Shown: positions 322-2,096 of the stretch, piece after piece
Layout: every line of letters begins with the position of its first letter
How positions within the stretch are numbered: position 1 is the stretch's first letter
Assembly (NCBI GenBank): GCA_003142215.1
Contig: PLOT01000246.1
Location: 1-41,674, forward strand
Direction: 5' to 3'
From: Granulicella sp.
GTDB taxonomy: Bacteria > Acidobacteriota > Terriglobia > Terriglobales > Acidobacteriaceae
Length of the DNA: 41,674 bases
Translations under genes and position numbers: made by a program
The notes under the pieces: generated by a model
The model's input: the letters and a program-made list of their open reading frames with translations, nothing else
The model's database searches: none
Told to the model about the DNA's origin: nothing

Positions 322-951
322 CTAAGCTGGGCCGCCTGCCGACCTGCTCCAAGAAGGTTGAAACTCTGTTAATTTCTGCCGACAGCGGTAGAGACTAGGC
401 GAGTGTAACTCCGCTTCGTTCGGCTTCCATACCGTCGTGACAAATTCGCATAAGCACCCGTTGTAATCGCGCCCCTGCTTTGCCGTGGATTTCGGTCTCG
501 GTACAATTCGCGATTTAATCAGACTTCGCGGCGATTTAGATGCCAATCTGATCAGCGTGGCTTTGGGATCAGGCAATTCGTCTGGCTGCTGTGGAAGTCG
601 TGTTTTGGATACTCCGAGAAAGCTTGAAAAACTTGTCCGGTCAGCCAATATCCAGGATTCTACCTCCCGCACCGCAACCCTAAAGATGAGATTGTGCTGA
701 ATGGTATCAGGGAGCCATGAAGACGTCAGGGCTGACGGACAAACAACAGCATCCAAATCTGTCAAAAGGAAAAATGGAATGCCTTTTGCTGCATTATTCC
801 AACCCGGAACATTTTTTCTCAGGTATCCATTTCCGCCGTGATTGTATACAGCGCCGATCGAGAAACTCCTCCCAGAATCGACAAGTAGCCGTTTGGCCAC
901 AGCCTCGCTAAGCAAGTCTTCGACTGCGATGTTGATTGGGATTGGTGTCAT
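322..951 (-). CDS. TOPRIM-like (DUF4276-type) partner of an AAA ATPase
   Basis: Predicted 209-residue protein, probably a metal-dependent nuclease of the TOPRIM fold. An acidic residue follows the first strand (E11 in IAVEDLLSE). An aspartate pair lies at the end of a hydrophobic strand (D65 and D67 in FFLLTDLDAV), the DxD signature of TOPRIM domains. REVESW with D104, DPKATL and SPSL further on are typical of DUF4276-like proteins that accompany ATPases. The ATG at 949-951 overlaps the stop of the upstream ATPase gene as ATGA, indicating translational coupling; longer readings would run back inside the ATPase gene. The last dozen residues are probably repeat-derived. By analogy with OLD, Gabija and PARIS systems the pair may act in phage defence. 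That role is inferred, and the family assignment is moderately sure. Confidence 0.62.
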   Translation of the reverse strand: MTPIPINIAVEDLLSEAVAKRLLVDSGRSFSIGAVYNHGGNGYLRKNVPGWNNAAKGIPFFLLTDLDAVVCPSALTSSWLPDTIQHNLIFRVAVREVESWILADRTSFSSFLGVSKTRLPQQPDELPDPKATLIRLASKSPRSLIKSRIVPRPKSTAKQGRDYNGCLCEFVTTVWKPNEAELHSPSLYRCRQKLTEFQPSWSRSAGGPA

Positions 952-2096
952 TGGAACAAGTTGAACTGTTCTAGTGTCGGAGGGGCAGTGAACGGAAGCG
1001 CAGCTTCGGCGATGCTCAAGCCATTCTCCAGCATGGCGCGAACTTCTTTCCGTTCCGATGAGACCTGAGCTTTCGTCCCCTCCAGCGATGGAGTGAGTAG
1101 AATCACCTCCTCGGCACCAATACCGAGATCCGAAAGCAGTTCCCACGAATGAGTAGTCACAAATACCTGGCCGCTACGTCCCTTCTGCTGCTTCTGTAGC
1201 CGATAAAAGAGCGATGGGAGGCGTTTCACAATCGCTGAGTTCAGAGACAACTCCGGCTCTTCGAGTAGCAGCGGGGAATCTCCGTCGAGAAGAGACCAAA
1301 AGAGCCCGATCAGCCGAAGCGTCCCATCTGAAAACTGATCCTCTCTTTGGCGGCCAGCATTGGGACGCCAGTGTTCGTATAGAACTTCGAGATGTGGAAC
1401 TCCAGCATCATCCTTCGTATCGTTCAGGTCTTTCATCTGCGGGACTGCTGATTTTAGAGCTGCCTCAATTTTGCGTAGACGCGCCTTTCGCGTCTTCTCC
1501 GGTGTCCGCGCAATAGCCTCCAAAAAGCCTCTTCCAAACGGATCGTCAACTGCGGCACCTTGGCCTTCAGGTTTCCGCAACAGTTGAGGCACAAGGTGCA
1601 GGTAGCGAATCGATTCGAGCAATTTCGCTATATCGCGAAACTTTGAATTGGCACTGATTTGCTCAAGATGCGTTTGAGTCAGTAGAACTCTGTCACTCTG
1701 ATCGTGCGTGTCCGGCCGATTGAGCACCTGCTCATCACCATGCCAAGCACGCTCATACCTGATAACAGGCAGACGCAATCCGCCAGCCTGGTGAGTCAGA
1801 CCGATGGCGTATCGCCAGTCAGCGCTATCTTCGTTCTCGGAAAGTGAGATTTCTAGCTCTACATCCGGGTCTTTACGGGCCGATAGACAGCGAACCTTTG
1901 AAAGTCCGCCTCTATGCACAAGGCTGCTTTGCAGGCCTCCTCCAGGCTTGGCGATATCACGCAGAAATCGCAATGCGTCCAGGAAGTTAGACTTTCCAGA
2001 CGCATTGGCTCCGACAATGAATACTCTGTCCGAAAGGGCAACATCAATTGATCGGAAATTTCGCCAGTTTTTTAGAACCAACCGGGAGATCAGCAT
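948..2096 (-). CDS. AAA_21/RecF-like ABC-type ATPase, putative defence component
   Basis: A 382-residue SMC/RecF-class ATPase. Visible motifs are Walker A GANASGKS at 29-36, an ABC-like signature FSDGT at 255-259, Walker B with tandem glutamates (LLLEEPEL) at about 276-283, and an H-loop TTH at 314-316. The N-terminus (LVLKNWRNFRSIDV) is the usual first strand of the COG4637/OLD ATPase group. There is no long coiled coil between the two lobes, so this is a compact form. It is the first gene of a two-gene unit, with a four-base overlap onto the TOPRIM-like gene. Base composition is visibly less GC-rich than in the genes to the right, which suggests acquisition by transfer. Such ATPases typically sense or bind DNA and gate the partner nuclease; whether this one does is unknown. 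Confidence 0.75.
   Translation of the reverse strand: MLISRLVLKNWRNFRSIDVALSDRVFIVGANASGKSNFLDALRFLRDIAKPGGGLQSSLVHRGGLSKVRCLSARKDPDVELEISLSENEDSADWRYAIGLTHQAGGLRLPVIRYERAWHGDEQVLNRPDTHDQSDRVLLTQTHLEQISANSKFRDIAKLLESIRYLHLVPQLLRKPEGQGAAVDDPFGRGFLEAIARTPEKTRKARLRKIEAALKSAVPQMKDLNDTKDDAGVPHLEVLYEHWRPNAGRQREDQFSDGTLRLIGLFWSLLDGDSPLLLEEPELSLNSAIVKRLPSLFYRLQKQQKGRSGQVFVTTHSWELLSDLGIGAEEVILLTPSLEGTKAQVSSERKEVRAMLENGLSIAEAALPFTAPPTLEQFNLFQ

Follow-up and report, generated by a model that had tools for sequence, protein, structure and literature searches.

The window analysed here, a 41,674-nucleotide stretch of a Granulicella sp. genome, carries at its left end two genes on the minus strand. The upstream gene (948..2096) encodes a RecF/SMC-like ABC ATPase (AAA_21) of HEC-01A type and 382 aa, and the downstream gene (322..951) encodes a TOPRIM-type, HEC-01B/DUF4276-like small protein of 209 aa that is a putative nuclease. 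As the initial annotation described, the two open reading frames are joined by a four-base overlap, in which the ATG of the small-protein gene shares 4 nt with the TGA of the ATPase gene (ATGA, 948..951, minus strand). Its remark that the block is richer in AT than its surroundings and lies beside repeats also agrees with what was found here: the GC content of the pair is approximately 50-54% compared to 60-68% across most of the flank, and positions 1-310, next to the pair, hold a dispersed repeat. This genome contains about 40 partial copies of it, which are 73-96% identical and mostly cover a core at 133-241. A further short repeat at 2192-2248 recurs on two other contigs of this genome (C208 and C314), in each case with a copy of the 1-310 repeat within some hundreds of bases, and because the two lie so close together on those contigs they may form one larger element. 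Base 1 of the window is the end of the contig and the left context of the pair stops there, while the right neighbour, on the opposite strand, is presumably a polyphosphate-kinase-like gene, as named from its sequence.

The ATPase matches Pfam AAA_21 (E=1.6e-37) and, over residues 1-380 of its 382, the PADLOC model PDLC04180 for HEC-01A (E=3e-156). The Walker A motif (GANASGKS, 1989..2012), the ABC signature (FSDGTLRL, 1311..1334), the Walker B motif with the catalytic Glu (LLLEEPE, 1251..1271) and the H-loop (THS, 1146..1154), all on the minus strand, are intact and conserved. The AF2 model of the ATPase has a mean pLDDT of 89.0 and is closest to PtuA, SMC, Rad50 and GajA (Foldseek, E about 1e-13 to 1e-11).

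The small protein matches the PADLOC HEC-01B model PDLC04194 over its full length (E=1.7e-66), and its match to Pfam DUF4276 is weak (E=5e-4, below the gathering score). No match was found in NCBIfam or PHROGs, and a sequence search against the PDB returned only chance matches. Its AF2 model (mean pLDDT 88.9) shows alternating strands and helices, and the top PDB neighbours in a Foldseek search were the C-terminal TOPRIM domains of OLD proteins (6nk8 and 6njw) at marginal E values of 0.025-0.05, with no match to a non-TOPRIM fold. At these marginal scores, the structure prediction that the initial annotation had called for is compatible with a TOPRIM fold. The E...DxD signature it had read in this protein is conserved across 13 homologues. 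The putative first metal-binding acidic residues are E11 (at least 90% conserved) and E16 (invariant) in VEDxLSE (904..921, minus strand); in the DxD motif D65-L-D67 (751..759, minus strand) D65 is invariant and D67 is at least 90% conserved; and E98 of a conserved R-x-V-E-x-W motif (658..660, minus strand) is invariant. With its conserved E, DxD and ExW, the small protein is a DUF4276-like putative nuclease.

Both proteins match the models of HEC-01, a catalogued PADLOC candidate defence family, over their full length, the genes are adjacent and in the same order, and no difference in the anatomy of the pair was found. The pair belongs to HEC-01 and is not a new system, a correction to the earlier suggestion of a little-described subtype. 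HEC stands for Hma-embedded candidate, and several HECs have been reported as validated, with HEC-06 named among them (PMC12988326). In the openly licensed papers and few preprints searched, no mention of DUF4276 was found, nor any paper that treats HEC-01 together with PADLOC.

The initial annotation had likened the arrangement to OLD, Gabija and PARIS pairs while considering the proteins much smaller. The likeness to OLD and PARIS holds, but HEC-01B partners normally have about 200 aa. PARIS (AriA-AriB, class 4 OLD) also consists of adjacent, separate ATPase and TOPRIM genes, the window ATPase also matches AriA models (E=4e-33), and a PARIS complex came up at rank 11 in the fold search with the small protein (E=0.23). 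However, the window partner is of DUF4276/HEC-01B type and gave no match to AriB, the window pair is smaller, and its ATPase has a C-terminal clamp-type motif. The class 1 and 2 OLD systems (P2 Old, GajA) likewise combine a RecF/SMC-like ATPase with a TOPRIM nuclease, and this group supplies the closest fold matches to the small protein, but there the two parts are fused whereas in the window they are two genes. As for Gabija, a GajB UvrD-like helicase is not among the window open reading frames listed, and the contig end at base 1 leaves no room for one. AbiL (AbiLi/AbiLii) also pairs an ATPase with a small partner, and the window ATPase matches AbiLi (E=8e-22), though far more weakly than HEC-01, and the partner has no AbiLii match at the threshold used.

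Across 84,980 species genomes, a scan recovered 80 close ATPase loci, which come from Acidobacteriota, Cyanobacteriota, Bacteroidota, Planctomycetota, Pseudomonadota, Poribacteria, archaea and others. Together with loci from relatives they gave 93 ATPases. A TOPRIM partner lies directly downstream in 86 of the 93 (tblastn), across many phyla, and one more (L059) was recognised by reading, while L060 and L082 keep only a truncated remnant of the partner. At four loci (L071, L074, L087 and L089) no recognisable TOPRIM partner was found downstream. The pairing also answers the possibility, raised in the initial annotation, that homologues occur mainly in housekeeping contexts without the ATPase, which is not the case. 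The distribution is patchy: 14 of 150 relatives, but none of the congeners searched, gave a TOPRIM homologue, and inspection of the ppk neighbourhood in 24 congeners did not turn up the pair. At the thresholds used, no homologue was found in phage collections or among 72,556 plasmids. With full-length matches to HEC-01A and HEC-01B, this pairing, this distribution and the OLD TOPRIM fold neighbours at marginal E, the earlier proposal of a candidate defence pair is upheld.

The genes around the homologous loci give a more mixed picture. One pair (L044) adjoins type I restriction genes and two (L093 and L100) adjoin HmaB, but other loci adjoin housekeeping genes. Genes near the loci matched 137 PADLOC families and genes far from them 48, in a neighbour survey tallied by family. 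The neighbourhood survey proposed earlier thus shows an association with defence at some loci, and that association is modest overall. A second AriA/NsnB-like AAA gene was also seen at L100 (11757-13496), between the HEC-01 pair and the HmaB gene.

The most informative feature of the locus is the C-terminal clamp-type motif of the ATPase, which was absent from the initial annotation. In the alignment of homologues a variable linker separates the conserved core from a short motif at the extreme C-terminus, and in the window this candidate sliding-clamp-binding motif is QFNLF (residues 377-381; 954..968, minus strand), followed by one Gln and the stop. The Phe at position 2, where Leu is usual, makes the window copy slightly non-consensus. 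Short QLxLF or QLxLxL peptides, often terminal, are found in clamp-binding proteins such as Hda, MutS, Pol IV and SocB. Those are other enzymes than the window ATPase, and we know of no clamp-binding protein that is an ATPase-TOPRIM defence pair.

The motif is conserved by statistical measure. A pattern consisting of a QLxLF-like pentapeptide or a QLxLxL/F-like hexapeptide matched within the last 14 residues of 67 of the 93 homologues, compared to a mean of 2.6 and at most 9 matching tails in 500 shuffles, the pattern having been written after the first tails were seen and the 80 scan loci fetched afterwards. A strict form of the pattern matched 55 tails compared to 0.44 in shuffles, and internal 14-residue windows matched at 0.8%. 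Among the remaining tails, 12 of 93 have a near match only and 14 of 93 have no recognisable motif. Of the 67 matching tails, 61 have Leu at position 2 and 57 have it at position 4, and S, T, D or A predominate at position 3. The tail of the ATPase in a gammaproteobacterial pair from Pantoea (L099) reads QLGLW. The Leu residues of the motif are encoded by all six codons, which together with the preference at position 3 suggests that the constraint acts on the protein. The motif codons are also not purine-rich, and the motif is retained at three loci where no partner was found (QLSLLE in L071, QLSLFE in L087 and QLSLFEE in L089). The possibility that the motif merely reflects an overlap with the next gene, through its ribosome-binding site or its start, was considered and was rejected on these grounds, namely the six Leu codons, the codon composition and the retention without a partner.

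The pentapeptide and hexapeptide forms interconvert, and on a tree built without the tail the hexapeptide group requires 9 changes. A motif that survives such changes of form suggests selection for binding. The same genome has a DnaN-like gene. The window tail is not predicted to be strongly disordered (block pLDDT of 81 and then 61 in the AF2 model). No relevant report that joins a clamp-binding motif, or the sliding clamp or DnaN, to anti-phage activity was found among openly licensed papers and few preprints. The clamp tether predicted from this tail is the new and testable part of the locus, with no earlier report of it found in the papers searched, the pair itself being a known candidate.

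A second, diverged HEC-01A subtype, PDLC04178, is 27-29% identical. In a sample of three sequence types from four loci, two of them from related genomes, its ATPase carries KQLDLF, AQIELF or AQMDLF close to the C-terminus and is followed by a TOPRIM partner. Among members of PDLC04182 and PDLC04175 from the same relatives the motif is absent, and roughly 35 tails of other AAA_21 ATPases gave no pattern match in the last 14 residues and one near match (QGLLF in L145). The motif therefore belongs to some HEC-01 subtypes and not to such ATPases generally. The sliding clamp of archaea is PCNA. At four archaeal loci of one clade (L041/L104, L111, L112 and L115) the tail is QAYLEEFF, a canonical PIP box, at the place of the bacterial motif, and the PCNA-binding motif is Qxx[I/L]xxFF (PMC9690074). 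The other archaea are mixed, with QxxLF-like forms in L106 and L107, degenerate tails in L109 and L110, and neither motif nor partner in L108. A switch to the PIP box in archaea is suggestive, though it should be noted that it concerns one clade and was noticed after the fact.

The reading preferred here, at a probability of roughly 60%, is that the pair is a two-gene, OLD/PARIS-like ATPase-nuclease of HEC-01 type that is tethered to the sliding clamp and guards replicating DNA. The data show the gene anatomy, the pairing, the family match, the conserved catalytic residues and the conservation of the clamp-type motif, by statistics and by phylogeny; we infer clamp binding, nuclease activity, trigger and defence. 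Points against this reading are the Phe in the window motif, the tails with a near match or no motif, the mixed archaeal tails, a tail that is not predicted to be strongly disordered, the marginal fold scores of the small protein and the modest defence context. One alternative is that this is an ordinary HEC-01/OLD-like defence pair whose QLxLF tail is an intramolecular latch or a peptide that docks the TOPRIM protein. Short conserved peptides at a C-terminus can serve to dock partner subunits, and very few of the loci lack the partner. However, the allowed variants follow the published bacterial clamp-binding consensus, QL(S/D)LF at the C-terminus (PMC9690074), and a hexapeptide form of the motif occurs as well. 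The persistence of the motif at the three loci where no partner was found and the PIP box at the same place in one archaeal clade also speak against a latch, which makes this explanation unlikely.

It is also rather improbable that the pair is a host module for DNA repair or replication quality that works on the clamp with its RecF/SMC-like ATPase and TOPRIM nuclease and is not primarily anti-phage. Clamp binding is a common trait of proteins in replication and repair, and there is precedent in Cran1, an archaeal OLD-family ATPase-nuclease that acts in cell-cycle progression and not in defence (PMC12796447). Such a role fits poorly with the patchy distribution and absence from congeners, with Hma or restriction-modification neighbours at some loci, and with the listing of HEC-01 by PADLOC as a defence candidate. 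A toxin-antitoxin-like or plasmid-interference module that uses the clamp to target replicons is very improbable, since the small protein has no toxin or antitoxin family match and no homologue was found on the plasmids searched at the thresholds used. Even so, the Caulobacter toxin SocB acts via the sliding clamp (PMC9690074), and ATPase-TOPRIM modules can target plasmids, as with Wadjet, whose JetD has OLD-like TOPRIM homology (PMC10568477).

Under the preferred reading of a clamp-tethered pair, the ABC ATPase would most likely assemble into a dimer or a larger complex that holds the TOPRIM nuclease and keeps it under control. A flexible C-terminal peptide of the ATPase would bind the hydrophobic groove of the bacterial sliding clamp DnaN, which would keep the complex on clamps at replication forks and on DNA that has just been copied. 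Phage replication that uses, displaces or poisons host clamps might then change the state of the ATPase, and this change would release the TOPRIM nuclease to cut nucleic acid, either phage DNA or a host target, the latter leading to abortive infection. For the family more widely, the odds are put slightly better than even that HEC-01 of the PDLC04180 and PDLC04178 subtypes is a clamp-tethered defence, in which the C-terminal motif docks DnaN, or PCNA in at least one archaeal clade, and so ties immunity to ongoing DNA replication or to interference by phages with the clamp.

To our knowledge, it is understood for few ATPase-TOPRIM defence systems how they detect infection. The conserved clamp-binding tail, if real, would offer a concrete and easily tested answer for one widespread family, which would be watching the replication fork. 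If this is true, HEC-01 would be a rare defence system with a physical connection to host replication, and one whose clamp motif appears to have changed, in a single archaeal clade, from the bacterial form to that for PCNA.
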